NCBI GenBank assembly: GCA_027310575.1
Contig: DAIDAO010000048.1
Coordinates: 1 to 52,900 of the forward strand
Reading direction: 5' to 3'
Length of the DNA: 52,900 bases
Source of the DNA: a bacterium
GTDB lineage: Archaea > Thermoproteota > Nitrososphaeria > Nitrososphaerales > Gagatemarchaeaceae
In this document: positions 24,258 through 29,318 of the stretch, one piece after another
Layout: each line of letters starts with the position of its first letter
How positions within the stretch are numbered: position 1 is the first letter of the stretch
Made by a program: the position numbers and the translations under genes
Notes under the pieces: model-generated
What the model was told of the DNA's origin: nothing
What the model saw: the letters and a program-made list of their open reading frames with translations, nothing else
Database searches by the model: none

Positions 24258-25196
24258 CTACAGGAGGCTTACGAGCAGGTAACTTGAGGTGAAGGCGACG
24301 AGGGGAGCCGCCACCCAGAGCGAAAGGGTGTCCCCCACGAGCCTCCGGTTGACCACGGACACGATGCGGGAGTAAGCCGCCCCGAGCATCCCGCCCAGAA
24401 GGCACTGGCTGATCGATACGGGGAAGGCGAACTGCGTCCCCACCCATACGACTATGGAGCTGGCGACGAAGGCAGAGAAGACCCCCTGCGGGCTCAGGGT
24501 CAGCATCTTGTCCCCCATGGTACCGCCGAGCGCCGTGCGCCCGAGCGCCACGATGCCGACCGTCCCCGCGATGATCAGAACCAGGACGACCGTGTAGTCG
24601 ACCGGGGCCGAGGCGGCTAGGATACCGGTCGCGGCGTAGAACAGGCCGAGGTTGTTGGCCCCGAGCGTGTACGAGACGGCCAGGCCGCTCACCACCGCGC
24701 CTGCCCGGTTCATGGAGTCGACGGCCAGGATGCCGAAGCGCGAGGCGAAGCTCGTCGTGGACTCGTAGATCCCGAAGGTGATGAGCGCTGTGGCGAGGGG
24801 AGCGAGGAACCAGAAGCCGATCACCTCGGAGGACCTCCCCAGATTGATCGGGATGCCCGCGGCGTAGGTGGCGCCGAGGAAGGCGCCCACCATGATCATG
24901 CTGAACGAGACAGGGAGGTCGAGGAGGGTGAGGACGAAGGCGAGCGAGATGGATACGATCATCACGGCGAGGAGGACAGAGTAGGTCGTAGAAAGCGCGA
25001 GGGAGCCTGCGAGGGTGGCGGCCATCTTCGACCCTTCGAGGAGAGCCCCGACGAGGAGCCCCAGGACGGACAGGATGATCGCGGCTGCGAAGGAGAGAGA
25101 GCCCGCCCCCCTCAGGTTGCCTATCAGGAAGGAGCTGTTGTTCCACCCGAAGAGGAACGTGAGGACTGCTGCGAGCCCCACGAGAAGCTCATCCAT
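24258..25196 (-). CDS. pit: Pit-family inorganic phosphate transporter
   Basis: 312 residues with about ten helices. Pit proteins have an internal repeat with GANN/GxND motifs: the first is FLFGWNNSSFLIGNLRGAGS near the N-terminus, the second is SYTLGANNLGLFYAATG. LSPQGVFSAFVASSIVVWVG and the FPVSISQCLLGGMLGAAY segment (P-V-S-T/I-x-x) also match. It imports phosphate by cation symport. It lies 12 bases after the DUF47/PhoU-like gene on the same strand, the standard arrangement. It is shorter than E. coli Pit (about 500) but normal for archaea. Confidence 0.92.
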   Translation of the reverse strand: MDELLVGLAAVLTFLFGWNNSSFLIGNLRGAGSLSFAAAIILSVLGLLVGALLEGSKMAATLAGSLALSTTYSVLLAVMIVSISLAFVLTLLDLPVSFSMIMVGAFLGATYAAGIPINLGRSSEVIGFWFLAPLATALITFGIYESTTSFASRFGILAVDSMNRAGAVVSGLAVSYTLGANNLGLFYAATGILAASAPVDYTVVLVLIIAGTVGIVALGRTALGGTMGDKMLTLSPQGVFSAFVASSIVVWVGTQFAFPVSISQCLLGGMLGAAYSRIVSVVNRRLVGDTLSLWVAAPLVAFTSSYLLVSLL

Positions 25197-25208
25197 GACC
25201 AGGGACTA

Positions 25209-25883
25209 CTACCCGTACCCCTTCGCTATCAGCACCAGGATGACGTCGCTTGCGTCCTCGGCGTTGTCAGCTATGTTGTCTGCGACGAAGATGAAGTCCC
25301 TCAGCTGGATGACGGTGACCGGGTCCATCGATTCGTTGGAGCTGAACAGGGCCTTCAGCAGGATGTCCTTGTGGGCGTCGGCCTCCTCCTCGAAGTCCTC
25401 GACGGCCGTCACCTTCGCCAGGGCTTCGCTCTTCCCCTGCTCTAGCGCCTGCACAAGGCTGGTCAGCGCAGCTACCGACGACTTCAGGGCGGAGATGAAC
25501 GACCTCATCGCTGCCGAGCCGAGCGTGCTCCTGGCCTCGGCAGTCAGGCGGGAGTCCTGGGACAGGAAGCGGGCCGCGTCCTTCGCGCTGTCGGCGATGT
25601 CGTCTATCTTCTCGAGGAGGTTCAGCATGTCCTCCCGGACGCCCCCGAAGAAGGCCCCCTCGGCTATCTTGGTGCCGAGCTCCCGGTGGATGGCGTCCGC
25701 CTCGGTCTCGCCGTCGAAGACCTTCTCGACCACCTCAGCCGACTTCGCGTCCCCTCTGGCGAAGGCAGAGACGCTCGCATCGAACGAGTCCACAGTCCTG
25801 GTGACCGTGTCGAGGAGGCGGAGGACGCCGTCGAATATCGCCCTCTCTCGCCTGTTGATCGAGAGGAACCTTAGGTCGACCAA
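25209..25883 (-). CDS. DUF47/PhoU-like phosphate transport accessory protein
   Basis: A 224-residue all-helical protein of the DUF47 (TIGR00153) family, found next to Pit transporters in many archaea and bacteria and thought to regulate them. Signature stretches are RERAIFDGVLRLLDTVTRTV, FDGETEADAIHRELGTKIAE, NLLEKIDDIADSAKDAARFL and the metal-binding-like RDFIFVADNIADNAEDASDV near the end. Acidic E/D-xxx-D repeats match the PhoU fold. It directly precedes pit and is probably co-transcribed with it. The upstream neighbour is the AT-richer intein-like gene, ending 27 bases before this start. Confidence 0.9.
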   Translation of the reverse strand: MVDLRFLSINRRERAIFDGVLRLLDTVTRTVDSFDASVSAFARGDAKSAEVVEKVFDGETEADAIHRELGTKIAEGAFFGGVREDMLNLLEKIDDIADSAKDAARFLSQDSRLTAEARSTLGSAAMRSFISALKSSVAALTSLVQALEQGKSEALAKVTAVEDFEEEADAHKDILLKALFSSNESMDPVTVIQLRDFIFVADNIADNAEDASDVILVLIAKGYG

Positions 25884-25910
25884 TCCCGCAGAGGTCCGGG
25901 CGGGCTGCCC

Positions 25911-27161
25911 TTAAACGTCGCCGAGAGCAGAGGTAGTGTCATGAACCGAGATGCCGGAGAGCGTGAAACTGTGGTCTTCATCGACCTCTAGGTTGTACGC
26001 AAGACCCCTGAATTCCTCCTCGGTAACCTTCTTGACCGGGACCCAGAATTTCTTGAACCGTTTCGTGTACCATTGAGCGGTCCTTCCGGACTTGCTCATG
26101 CCCGTGGGTTCGTCGACAACTTCGTTGAACCTGAACCTTTGTTTCCCGGAGATTGACAATTGATATGATATCCCACTTTTGACTACTCGGTCCCCAATCT
26201 TACTTTCCCGGATTTCGTGCTTCAGGAAACTTGGCAGGTAACCGAGACGTTCGAAGACCAGTGTCATTCCGCTTGCTAGATCGATGTACGAGGAGGAAGC
26301 TGAAAAGCTGTTGAGACTGGAAGTCCCGTCGCCACGCCACCAGCCTTTCACTAGCTCCTTGAGGAACCGTTCAGGTAGCCGGAGAACCCACCTCGGAAGA
26401 TGCTTCTCCGGTCCTACGCGTCCGAAGTAACGCGAGAAGAATGTGTAGGCATGAACTGATGTGACGTGGATTACCGTCGTCGACTCGGTGTGCTGTATCC
26501 ATGGTTTCACCAGAAAAATCTCTCTAAGCAGTGCGACGCAGTCGGCTACGTAGAGTTCTTCCCCATTTCTGTTGAAAGTGAAAGCGACACGCCCCTCGTT
26601 CGGAAGGGGATGGTAGGCAAATCCCTCTGAGAGATAGTATCCCACAAGCCTCATTAGTGGTGGAGTCACGCGCAGAATCCTAGTTTTCGAGCGATTATGA
26701 GGGTGGTACGCACCCCTGTGGGCCAGCATGTGGTGCTCGCTCATCCCAATCTTCAGTTGTCTGTCATTCCACTGACGACTGCTTCGGAGTGACCTCGCTG
26801 GTCTGGGCACACAGATCATGTCCCCTTTGCGCAATTCGCTTGCGGGTCTCCAGCGTTCGGCGTAACGGGGATATCCTGTGGAGTCGAGCCTCCAGCTCAT
26901 AGAGAGCACAGGGTATTCTGGCCCGAGGAGAATGTCTGGTTTGTAGGTTGGTGTGATTCGAAAGACCTTGTCTACACATGGTGTCGTCCCTAGTCGAGTA
27001 ATCGGTCTGAACCGACCTCTATGGGTGTAGACTAGGTTCCCGATTTTCAGATCTTGAGCGAATACGCTTCTGAGGATTTCAGAAAAGCGAGTCCGTTCGC
27101 TGGTGATGATTCTTCCTTGCGGAATAGAAACGCGTGTGAAATCAGATTCGCCGTCTCTCAC
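25911..27161 (-). CDS. Intein-like Hint/LAGLIDADG homing-endonuclease protein
   Basis: 416 residues that read like an intein standing alone. The N-terminal part has a Hint-like block (AQDLKIGNLVYTHRGRFRPI, about 35-54). A LAGLIDADG (DOD) endonuclease has its two motifs at LMRLVGYYLSEG (169-180) and LVKGWWRGDGT (270-280). The C-terminus is a nearly perfect intein end, AYNLEVDEDHSFTLSGISVH at 388-407, followed by D and TTSALGDV. The catalytic N-terminal Cys/Ser of block A and the TxxH of block B (here LLGPEYPVL) are missing, and the terminal Asn is Asp, so splicing is doubtful. It is clearly AT-richer than its neighbours. It lies directly downstream of the RecB-type nuclease gene and probably arrived with it. 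It could be an intein remnant whose host gene was lost, or a free homing nuclease. Confidence 0.8.
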   Translation of the reverse strand: MRDGESDFTRVSIPQGRIITSERTRFSEILRSVFAQDLKIGNLVYTHRGRFRPITRLGTTPCVDKVFRITPTYKPDILLGPEYPVLSMSWRLDSTGYPRYAERWRPASELRKGDMICVPRPARSLRSSRQWNDRQLKIGMSEHHMLAHRGAYHPHNRSKTRILRVTPPLMRLVGYYLSEGFAYHPLPNEGRVAFTFNRNGEELYVADCVALLREIFLVKPWIQHTESTTVIHVTSVHAYTFFSRYFGRVGPEKHLPRWVLRLPERFLKELVKGWWRGDGTSSLNSFSASSSYIDLASGMTLVFERLGYLPSFLKHEIRESKIGDRVVKSGISYQLSISGKQRFRFNEVVDEPTGMSKSGRTAQWYTKRFKKFWVPVKKVTEEEFRGLAYNLEVDEDHSFTLSGISVHDTTSALGDV

Positions 27162-27280
27162 AAACTCGGAGATGCAATAGCAGGATTAAAACCACCAACC
27201 GATTCCAGACTAATTTGGAAGGGAGCTCCTGTAAGTGATTGTGTGATACCCAGAACGTGGCTAGTGCCCTTTCGGTTCAT
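27158..27280 (-). CDS. Possible 40-residue coupled microORF
   Basis: An ATG at 27280 opens a 40-codon frame (MNRKGTSHVLGITQ at its start, NPAIASPSL at its end). It overlaps the 3' end of the RecB-type nuclease gene by 20 bases, and its TGA overlaps the GTG of the intein-like gene in a GTGA arrangement. That linkage is the only support. The sequence resembles no family I know and could be a fragment of a lost host protein. Confidence 0.25.
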   Translation of the reverse strand: MNRKGTSHVLGITQSLTGAPFQISLESVGGFNPAIASPSL

Positions 27281-28064
27281 AGAGAACGAGTTGGTTCCCT
27301 GAGCGTTTGAACTTCATCTGCTTCTCCGCCGCCAACAGTGCTGGCTCGGCGTAAGCGTCGAGAATCTTCCTTTTCGACCTGAGGACAGCGAAGACCAGCC
27401 CCTTGTCCACGAAGATTCTGCCTCGGGAGAACGGTTTGGCTGGAAGAGGCCTGTCGACTATCTGGCCTCGCTCCATGTAGGGGTTCAGTGTCGTCCATAT
27501 CTCTATGTCAGTGAAGATGTCACCGATGGCTGGATAGAATGGCTTTCTCTCGATCTCTTCTCCTTCGCCGTCAATCTGCTTGGTATAGAGGCAGTTGGGG
27601 TCTGAGAGAATCATCCCGTAAGCCCAGACCTGGAGCCAGTAACTTCCTTTGACGAACACCTTGTCATCCACGATAAGGAAGCGAAGTGTGTCTCCTTGCC
27701 AGTCCACGAGAACTGCGTCCACAGTTCCTCTTAGCCCATAACGCGCAGAACAGAAGGATAGAGAGAAGTAGAAAGTCTCCTTATTGCGAATGCGACGGAT
27801 AATTGATTCAGGATTGGTTTCGACCTGTCTTCTCTCTTCCAGCTCCATGTGCGCAGCGGTACCTGCGTCCATCTTCGCTTGATCTTCTGGAGAAGGTTCC
27901 ATCCTGTAAATGTTCCTAACCACTAGGTCGCGCAACTTTTCCGGGTGTCTTCGGTCAACTTGCGACAGGGAAGAACATCTGATACACTCCAGCCTTAGCG
28001 GGCACACCATGCAGTTCAGCATGCTCAGTGGTATCGACGGCTTCCTCTTGTGACGAGTCGGCAT
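27261..28064 (-). CDS. RecB/Cas4-type PD-(D/E)XK nuclease-like protein
   Basis: 267 residues. The motifs of the RecB-like PD-(D/E)XK superfamily appear in order: DAGTAAHMELEERR (GxxxHxxxE, about 67-80), GLRGTVDAVLVDWQGD (motif II Asp), LRFLIVDDKVF (D-x-K) and SYWLQVWAYGMIL (QxxxY). Near the N-terminus there is a Cys cluster, LNCMVCPLRLECIRC (C18, C21, C27, C30), which could bind metal. This differs from Cas4, where three cysteines lie at the C-terminus. No cas genes or CRISPR repeats are in the window. It starts one base after the stop of the 106-residue gene upstream and is followed by the intein-like gene. An Exo/repair or mobile-element nuclease is the safest description. Confidence 0.72.
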   Translation of the reverse strand: MPTRHKRKPSIPLSMLNCMVCPLRLECIRCSSLSQVDRRHPEKLRDLVVRNIYRMEPSPEDQAKMDAGTAAHMELEERRQVETNPESIIRRIRNKETFYFSLSFCSARYGLRGTVDAVLVDWQGDTLRFLIVDDKVFVKGSYWLQVWAYGMILSDPNCLYTKQIDGEGEEIERKPFYPAIGDIFTDIEIWTTLNPYMERGQIVDRPLPAKPFSRGRIFVDKGLVFAVLRSKRKILDAYAEPALLAAEKQMKFKRSGNQLVLYEPKGH

Positions 28065-28065
28065 T

Positions 28066-28386
28066 CTACTTCACCTCCATGCGCCCCGGCACTGCGTTCA
28101 GGGGGTCCGCGTACTTCCTGATGAGCTCCTTCGCGACCGACTGCCTCTGGATGGTCTGTATGTAGGAGTGGGGCCACTTGTGCTCGAAGATGATGAGCCT
28201 CCCCCTCCTGTCGAGCGCGAAGACGCGGAAGGTGAGCACCCATTTGGTCCCCTGAGAGTCCAGCTGCTTGATGTCCACGTCGTAGTGGACGGGCGAGTTG
28301 TCGTCGACCCTTATGCGGAAGTCAGGGTAGAGGTAGAAGACCCTGACCGCGTTCGGCCGCTGCACCTGCTCGCTAGGAGCTAGCAC
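28066..28386 (-). CDS. Conserved-looking hypothetical protein (106 residues)
   Basis: A 106-residue soluble protein with alternating strands and a helix at the C-terminus (QTIQRQSVAKELIRKYADPL). It carries FRIRVDDNSPVHYDVDIKQL and WVLTFRVFALDRRGRLIIFE. I do not recognise a family. It overlaps the upstream membrane-protein gene by 14 bases and precedes the RecB-type nuclease gene with a 1-base gap, so it is likely co-translated with them. Its base composition is like the GC-rich neighbours, unlike the two genes downstream. Confidence 0.65.
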   Translation of the reverse strand: MLAPSEQVQRPNAVRVFYLYPDFRIRVDDNSPVHYDVDIKQLDSQGTKWVLTFRVFALDRRGRLIIFEHKWPHSYIQTIQRQSVAKELIRKYADPLNAVPGRMEVK

Positions 28387-28966
28387 TTGGCTGACCTCCC
28401 ACGTTGGCAGGTTGAGTCAACCGTCTCTGTGGCGCGAGCTGGACCCAGAGTCCGATGAGGGTGATGGCGCCGGCGACCACTATGGCCATCGTAGGGCCGA
28501 AGCCGTAGCGGGTGAGTACGTCGAAGAGGAGCACGCCCCCGAACACAGCGGTAGCCAAAGTCAGTATCTTGCCTGACAGGACCACGCCCACGATGAAGAA
28601 GGCGACCCCGACGAGGAGCGAGATGGTAGGACCGAGGGCGAAGCCCAGGGCCATGAGATAGGCCACGTAGCCCACCAGCAGGCCGATGCCGAGGGCGAGC
28701 AGCGCCACCCCTAGTATCCCTCCAACGACGAAGCCGAGAAGCAGACCGATCATGCTCCAGTAGGGGGGGAGGTACTGTGCGGCTAGGGTGCCGCCGAATG
28801 CCGCCCCGACCAGGCCGACGGCAAGGAAGGCGACGACCTTGGCCGCGGTCCTTCCAGCGAAGATCAGGACAAGTGATATCCCCAGCAGAGCCACCAGTAC
28901 GAGGGGCGCTGGCACGTGCGCCGTTACCGGGGCCAATATGTCATGTATTGAGAACATTGGTTTCAC
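28373..28966 (-). CDS. Polytopic membrane protein (DUF4203/TMEM198-like)
   Basis: 197 residues with about seven hydrophobic helices rich in Gly/Ala/Leu/Val, for example VALLGISLVLIFAGRTAAKV, LGFVVGGILGVALLALGIGL and MAIVVAGAITLIGLWVQLAP. The glycine-rich repeated hairpins resemble DUF4203/TMEM198-type proteins, but the match is by general character only. It is the first gene of the minus-strand set that includes the 106-residue protein and the nuclease. Function unknown. Confidence 0.7.
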   Translation of the reverse strand: MKPMFSIHDILAPVTAHVPAPLVLVALLGISLVLIFAGRTAAKVVAFLAVGLVGAAFGGTLAAQYLPPYWSMIGLLLGFVVGGILGVALLALGIGLLVGYVAYLMALGFALGPTISLLVGVAFFIVGVVLSGKILTLATAVFGGVLLFDVLTRYGFGPTMAIVVAGAITLIGLWVQLAPQRRLTQPANVGGQPSASS

Positions 28967-29228: not shown

Positions 29229-29318
29229 GCCGCGGTAGCTCAGCCTGGGAGACCCTTGTGGCTCATCAGCATCCGGCTGAAGACCGGAGTGTCGTCGGCT
29301 CAAATCCGACCCGCGGCA
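29229..29318 (+). tRNA. tRNA-Phe (GAA) with a D-arm intron
   Basis: Removing 16 bases gives a perfect 74-nt tRNA. The acceptor GCCGCGG pairs with CCGCGGC, the D stem is GCTC/GAGC, the anticodon stem is TCCGG/CCGGA with loop CTGAAGA (anticodon GAA at 29279-29281), and the T stem is GTCGG/CCGAC with loop CTCAAAT. The discriminator is A at 29318, and CCA is not encoded. The D stem is split by the intron at 29252-29267. The last 18 bases plus the next T recur at 46205-46223, so the 3' end looks like an integration site. Confidence 0.93.
29252..29267 (+). other. 16-base tRNA intron at position 22/23
   Basis: The intron ACCCTTGTGGCTCATC interrupts the D stem after G22 (a one-base shift, to 29253-29268, is equally possible). 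A bulge-helix-bulge-like fold can be drawn. Exon TGGG (29246-29249) pairs with CTCA (29262-29265), the three-base bulges are AGA and TCA, and CC pairs with GG inside the intron. The fold is short and one outer pair is poor, so it is a relaxed motif, as expected for non-canonical archaeal introns. Confidence 0.8.

Follow-up and report, generated by a model that had tools for sequence, protein, structure and literature searches.

The question raised by this locus is how an intein-type protein comes to be encoded by a gene of its own. The window, meaning the whole 52,900 nucleotide stretch of DNA that was analysed, contains a minus-strand open reading frame of 416 codons with a GTG start that encodes a complete intein-type protein. 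An earlier note, made from the letters alone, had left two alternatives for it, a decayed intein that outlived its host gene or a free homing nuclease still carrying its Hint shell. The gene and its neighbours are the following.

25911–27161, minus strand: intein-derived free-standing LAGLIDADG protein, 416 aa, GTG start (ORF, profile, predicted model)
25209–25883, minus strand: PhoU_div (DUF47) protein, downstream neighbour (Pfam)
27261–28064, minus strand: weakly Cas4-like nuclease, intact, upstream neighbour (family searches)

A phosphate transporter gene lies downstream, beyond the PhoU_div gene. At the element the Rfam search gave neither an RNA family nor an intron, and its one tRNA lies elsewhere in the window.

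The match of the protein to Pfam Intein_splicing is below threshold (E 1.2e-4), and the match to NCBIfam intein_Cterm is barely over the cutoff (15.8 versus 15.6 bits). The search against intein profiles that the earlier note had proposed was carried out with a profile made from inteins embedded in hosts (64 of them), and the protein scores 237 bits against it over residues 36–407. AlphaFold2, given an alignment of 61 of these 64 aligned inteins, produced a model with a mean pLDDT of 86.3 and a pTM of 0.88, in which the predicted Hint shell is complete and its beta fold is built from both ends of the protein. VIA-align pairs this model end to end (residues 8/11–408) with the inteins PI-PfuI, PI-PkoII and TliVMA; the scores are Z 31.7 with 325 residues aligned at 3.2 Å for 7qsu, Z 30.8 with 347 residues at 4.3 Å for 2cw7 (PI-PkoII), and Z 21.5 with 330 residues at 4.3 Å for 1dq3 (PI-PfuI). 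The predicted Hint part (residues ~11–411) matches mini-inteins and hedgehog Hint in VIA-align at Z 17–19, and the LAGLIDADG part of the model matches I-DmoI at Z 17 and WhiA structures at Z 18. Given the 237-bit profile score and the model matches to whole inteins at Z 20–32, the intein-type identity of the protein is far beyond chance. Its parts map as follows.

26778–27131, minus strand: N-terminal half of the Hint (splicing) fold, residues 11–128, with position 1 at Val11 (AlphaFold model, VIA-align register, alignment)
26913–26924, minus strand: block B, residues 80–83, GPEY, in which the Thr of TxxH is Gly80 and the His is Tyr83 (alignment)
26112–26669, minus strand: two-motif LAGLIDADG homing endonuclease domain, residues 165–350 (alignment, profile, I-DmoI match Z 17)
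26619–26648, minus strand: DOD motif 1, LVGYYLSEGF, residues 172–181, catalytic Glu179 retained (Glu in 58/64 relatives)
26403–26405, minus strand: Lys253, conserved endonuclease-domain residue, retained (64/64 relatives)
26322–26354, minus strand: DOD motif 2, LVKGWWRGDGT, residues 270–280, catalytic Asp278 retained (Asp in 64/64 relatives)
25938–26060, minus strand: C-terminal half of the Hint fold, residues 368–408, with blocks F and G (alignment, profile, model)
25911–25937, minus strand: TTSALGDV, eight codons past the intein end, and the stop codon (sequence)

The two DOD motifs that had been noted earlier are confirmed at residues 172–181 and 270–280, and the C-terminus reads YNLEVDEDHSFTLSGISVHD-TTSALGDV, the nearly complete intein ending followed by TT that had been described.

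The positions required for splicing are a different matter from the fold. In the structural register, model residues 11 and 408 coincide with the first and last intein residues of 2cw7, 1dq3 and 1vde, and the 65-row alignment also places Val11 at position 1. The smaller 12-row alignment (A1) places Ser12 there, and for that reason a one-residue doubt remains at position 1, Val11 or Ser12. Ser12 as a splice nucleophile is favoured by the 12-row alignment only and was set aside, the 65-row alignment and the structural register both disagreeing with it. The N-terminal splicing Cys or Ser had been described as missing, and Val11 indeed occupies its place (Ser12 in the smaller alignment). The TxxH block had also been described as missing, which is correct for its Thr and His, each kept in 64/64 relatives and replaced here by Gly80 and Tyr83, but not for the block B segment itself, which is present. 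The terminal Asn, found in 63/64 relatives (the remaining one has a gap), is Asp408 in the window protein, and the penultimate His407 is the sole splicing catalytic position left unchanged. What a functional intein carries, namely Cys, Ser or Thr as residue 1, the block B Thr and His, and a terminal Asn, is not found. The LAGLIDADG catalytic positions Glu179, Lys253 and Asp278 are all retained in the 65-row alignment, giving the protein the two DOD motifs, acidic residues and basic residue of a DOD homing endonuclease.

The same division is seen across the 18 highly conserved columns, each conserved in at least 61/64 relatives: the window protein keeps 2/8 of those in the Hint domain and 9/10 of those in the endonuclease domain (Fisher p 0.013). 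The value is p 0.036 after removal of Cys1 and the last Asn, which were left out of the second test because both are fixed by the junction patterns that extracted the relatives. No other row of the alignment has lost more than two of the eight Hint columns. Within the endonuclease domain, one otherwise invariant residue is changed, a Ser that is Tyr292 here. In the window protein the Hint half is just marginally less conserved than the endonuclease half: relative to other inteins the difference is −0.106, the lowest of 12 group means, but 6/64 single inteins are as low or lower, so that the comparison does not establish a relaxed constraint on Hint; the 64 aligned inteins leave out 14/53 named-genome loci that do not fit the junction patterns. 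On this alignment, the predicted splicing residues are replaced and the predicted DNA-cutting residues are kept.

The intein region is flanked by approximately 10 residues before it and 8 after it, and does not lie in frame within a host protein. The joined flanks have no match beyond the window itself among the 31 genomes of the genus, and the 40-residue frame together with the 99-base gap 5' of the gene has no meaningful DNA match in 61 genomes, where the upstream DNA gives two matches of 27–29 bases besides its self-match. The earlier statement that no host extein of useful length surrounds the protein is borne out by these flanks, and the suggestion that TTSALGDV and the upstream 40-residue frame might match a common extein found no match in the 31 and 61 genomes searched. 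A host gene upstream or downstream was rejected, since neither the upstream DNA nor the joined flanks have meaningful matches. A protein that still splices or cleaves, yielding a micropeptide from very short exteins (~10 and 8 residues), could account for the retained His407, and inteins in small host genes do occur in the same order (L133). This reading is highly improbable in view of the Val (Ser in one alignment) at position 1, the replaced block B Thr and His and terminal Asn, and a joined peptide with no counterpart in 31 genomes.

Matches to the protein at E 1e-8 or better occur in 41/101 genomes, the window's own included, and the wider searches found matches in 58/400 genomes of the order (E 1e-12) and 27/398 genomes of the phylum (E 1e-10). 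Among the matches listed, all lie in open frames of at least 457 residues except those of G152:C56 (372 residues) and of the window gene. The three shortest frames of the order and phylum searches (G152:C56, G719:C62 and G695:C18) were considered as other stand-alone copies and rejected, each being an intein with a C-extein behind it whose host gene is small or broken. A uniform host check was applied to the 64 loci of the named-genome and viral scans, and host genes enclose 64/64, with two short frames (L100 and L113) being frameshifted host genes; for loci of the genome searches the assessment was by reading or from the length of the open frame, and not in every case one by one. The earlier note would have been contradicted by a closest homologue that is free-standing with the same ends. 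Such a homologue was sought and is absent from these 64 host-embedded loci, and with the window protein as single query, neither a second copy nor a close relative turned up among the named genomes and viral contigs. Matches in the phage and plasmid collections are distant, at 22–26% identity among the matches listed. They include genes for DNA methyltransferases in P1-like phages and plasmids (P1 dmt; H2, H5, H12–H24), which match most of the protein at 22–26% identity.

A small ferredoxin-like protein, by eye of NuoI type, carries two inteins at adjacent cysteine motifs (L013, L014, L010, L023) in several genomes of the family. The host gene of the intein at L133:2490–3898 is very small and zinc-ribbon-like; its C-extein has only ~20 residues, and the N-terminal part is apparently frameshifted. 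Two genomes of the phylum have inteins (L134 and L135) in a small host protein of unassigned function.

The identity of the window protein to its relatives is ~30% at best and up to 37% in short pieces. The best sequence match in 101 genomes is to inteins L006–L008 of the same genus (28% identity, E 1e-30), whose host we take by eye to be a Hel308-like helicase; the host names helicase, NuoI, POR, SufB, TrxR, IscU and endonuclease IV type are likewise presumed, by eye from sequence motifs. Unlike the window protein, L006–L008 are situated in a helicase gene with their splice motifs intact. In the tree, the window protein is on a long branch (length 2.1) beside helicase, endonuclease IV-type and radical-SAM-type inteins. 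Its apparent placement with the helicase inteins is not firm, because these are the best pairwise match but the tree support is 93/42. The helicase gene of the window genome lies in an intein-free open frame of 749 residues, while at least three inteins of the genome lie within host genes. Its inteins L002, L003 and L004 are in genes that by eye are of the radical-SAM, PurL and NAD-synthetase types.

The G+C content of the gene is 52.3%. It had been described as AT-richer than its flanks, which is the case relative to the PhoU, Pit and HflX genes (62.5–65.4%) but not relative to the adjacent cas4-like gene (52.2%). AT-richness is shared by inteins of the same genome, with a G+C content of 50.8–57.8%, and this resemblance bears on whether the locus is an assembly or binning artefact in which an intein fragment was fused to unrelated DNA. 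The window being one whole contig of a 61-contig genome leaves some room for such a fusion, but with the intein-like G+C, the open frame, a promoter-like box of its own and compact boundaries on both sides, an artefact is hardly credible. The orphan intein-type endonuclease gene is real.

The promoter-like box lies upstream of the start codon.

27186–27191, minus strand: TATA-like TTTTAA, of which the TTTAA starts 29 bases before the GTG (motif count)

A TATA-like string at −33 to −24 is present at 6/38 gene starts in the window, the element gene included (5/37 others), where the 38 starts are selected long frames, not all annotated genes. The background is 0.5% of all positions and 0.7% within the element on the same strand; the former is probably somewhat too low, since upstream regions are probably AT-richer than genes. 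A TATA-like box at about −29 fits leaderless archaeal transcripts, and TTTTAA is probably the promoter of one. Such a position fits a gene that is expressed from a promoter of its own and is not a passenger. A promoter-like box and a separate place between genes would also suit a domesticated protein with a DNA-binding or regulatory role, in which the LAGLIDADG fold no longer serves homing, comparable to HO (switching) or to WhiA-like proteins, the WhiA structures matching the LAGLIDADG part at Z 18. This explanation is improbable: the catalytic acids and Lys are retained, and same-genus counterparts are found only inside longer open frames, which ill suits a housekeeping role.

The first of the two original alternatives is that the gene is a decaying relic, an intein moved out of its host gene by recombination that neither splices nor cuts and is awaiting erosion. 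The loss of four splicing positions, the change of the invariant endonuclease Ser to Tyr292 and the single occurrence, with no close relative in named genomes or viral contigs, all agree with a relic. The state of the reading frame does not, as there are no stop codons in its 416 codons. Random change applied to the present frame introduces a mean of 4 stops at 0.1 per site, with 2% of runs intact, and 7 stops at 0.2 per site, with 0.3% intact, and changes in all three of the Thr, His and Asn codons have a probability of 0.65% at the first distance and 4.5% at the second. The joint probability of an intact frame and three altered codons is ≤ ~2e-4 at the seven distances tried in this simple neutral model, which has no indels and considers three codons only, and this favours a frame that was maintained beyond the loss of splicing. 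The 416 stop-free codons in spite of at least three changed catalytic codons, together with the full retention of endonuclease catalytic residues and a correctly placed promoter-like element, leave a relic unlikely. The second alternative, a free nuclease that kept its Hint shell, is the better supported, based on the intact frame, the retention of the homing endonuclease residues with splicing lost, the promoter-like element and the complete predicted Hint shell. The gene is probably a functional, free-standing homing endonuclease derived from an intein and no longer able to splice.

Comparison with related genomes provides candidate insert-free sites. Orthologues of the cas4-like gene are present in two genomes of the same genus, G023 (82% identical) and G027 (70% identical), in the same gene order, and both lack the insert. 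In G023, the cas4-like gene is followed by ~40 bases and then a PhoU-family gene, and in G027 there is ~2.1 kb of other DNA between the two. The PhoU genes of G023 and G027 belong to the same Pfam family, yet the window PhoU protein does not match them. As the window PhoU gene is no close orthologue of its G023 counterpart, the empty-site comparison is firmly anchored on the cas4 side only. A short motif lies at the other end of the gene.

25911–25915, minus strand: TTTAA 32 bases before the PhoU start, which holds the stop codon of the gene (sequence)

The string GTTTAAGG at this TTTAA recurs before the PhoU-family gene of G023.

These features suggest that the element is a former intein turned free-standing homing endonuclease gene, and we infer that its product both cuts and homes. 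The protein would fold as a Hint domain with a LAGLIDADG domain, the splice-dead Hint shell possibly serving as a scaffold or DNA-contacting part. It would cut a long target in insert-free chromosomes, presumably at the cas4-like/phoU junction, and recombination would then copy the element into the break. Since the gene sits between genes and appears to be transcribed separately, splicing would no longer be needed, and the splicing residues may have been free to drift.

In fold, domain order and endonuclease motifs, the protein resembles the archaeal LAGLIDADG inteins PI-PfuI (1dq3), PI-PkoII (2cw7) and TliVMA (7qss/7qsu). Those three inteins sit in host proteins and splice, in contrast to the window protein, which is hostless and has its splicing residues replaced. 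Free-standing homing endonuclease genes usually have no Hint splicing domain at all. As a selfish endonuclease gene between host genes, the element is similar to such genes (PMC8966425). The closest parallel in arrangement is with the yeast HO and WHO proteins, which combine intein-type and LAGLIDADG parts, have no exteins, are transcribed on their own and lie beside a gene (Coughlan et al. 2020, PMC7282813). The window gene likewise has no exteins and a putative promoter of its own, the latter recognised from sequence alone. HO and WHO have a C-terminal zinc finger and no motif G (PMC7282813), unlike the window protein, which has no zinc finger, ends 8 residues past the intein end and contains motif G with Asn changed to Asp. 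The host also differs in being archaeal, and no WHO-like duplicated piece of a neighbour gene was found within 25100–28200. The route from intein to free nuclease is described, in the literature examined, for yeast HO/WHO only (PMC7282813). An archaeal counterpart of the WHO elements, active and of a third structural kind in which a whole intein without splicing spreads by cutting at a gene junction and inserts beside a gene and not within it, is a tentative proposal.

By title and opening of the abstract, no archaeal free-standing intein-derived gene of this kind was found in the open-licence literature, which supports novelty only weakly. The usual view is that inteins retain splicing because a failure to splice kills the product of the host gene. 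If the proposed reading is true, this would be an archaeal example of an intein that left its host, gave up splicing and persists as a selfish nuclease in its own right, and the gene offers a ready test of the role of the Hint shell for the endonuclease after the loss of splicing.

The surroundings of the element are variable in other ways. The PhoU/transporter pair of G023 and G027 (L057:6024–7578 and L058:2592–4146) is a distant version relative to that of the window and other relatives, as if exchanged in place. On the other side lies a minus-strand cassette of three genes (27261–28966) common to G023 and G027, encoding the Cas4-like nuclease and proteins of 106 aa and 197 aa. The nuclease has further distant matches in G016 and G061 only, among 46 genomes, and the 106 aa and 197 aa proteins have no family match in Pfam, NCBIfam or PADLOC. 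The tRNA gene at 29252–29318 (plus strand) was found by Rfam and missed by ARAGORN, and by eye its anticodon stem-loop is that of tRNA-Phe (GAA). DNA resembling this tRNA is present near the PhoU locus in L057, L058, L060–L063 and L041. The stretch from PhoU (25883) to the tRNA (29252) varies among relatives, containing the cas4-like cassette in the window and, by eye, methyltransferase-like genes (L060:3145–4935) or a helicase-like gene (L062:6874–10230) elsewhere. This variable region resembles an integration hotspot.
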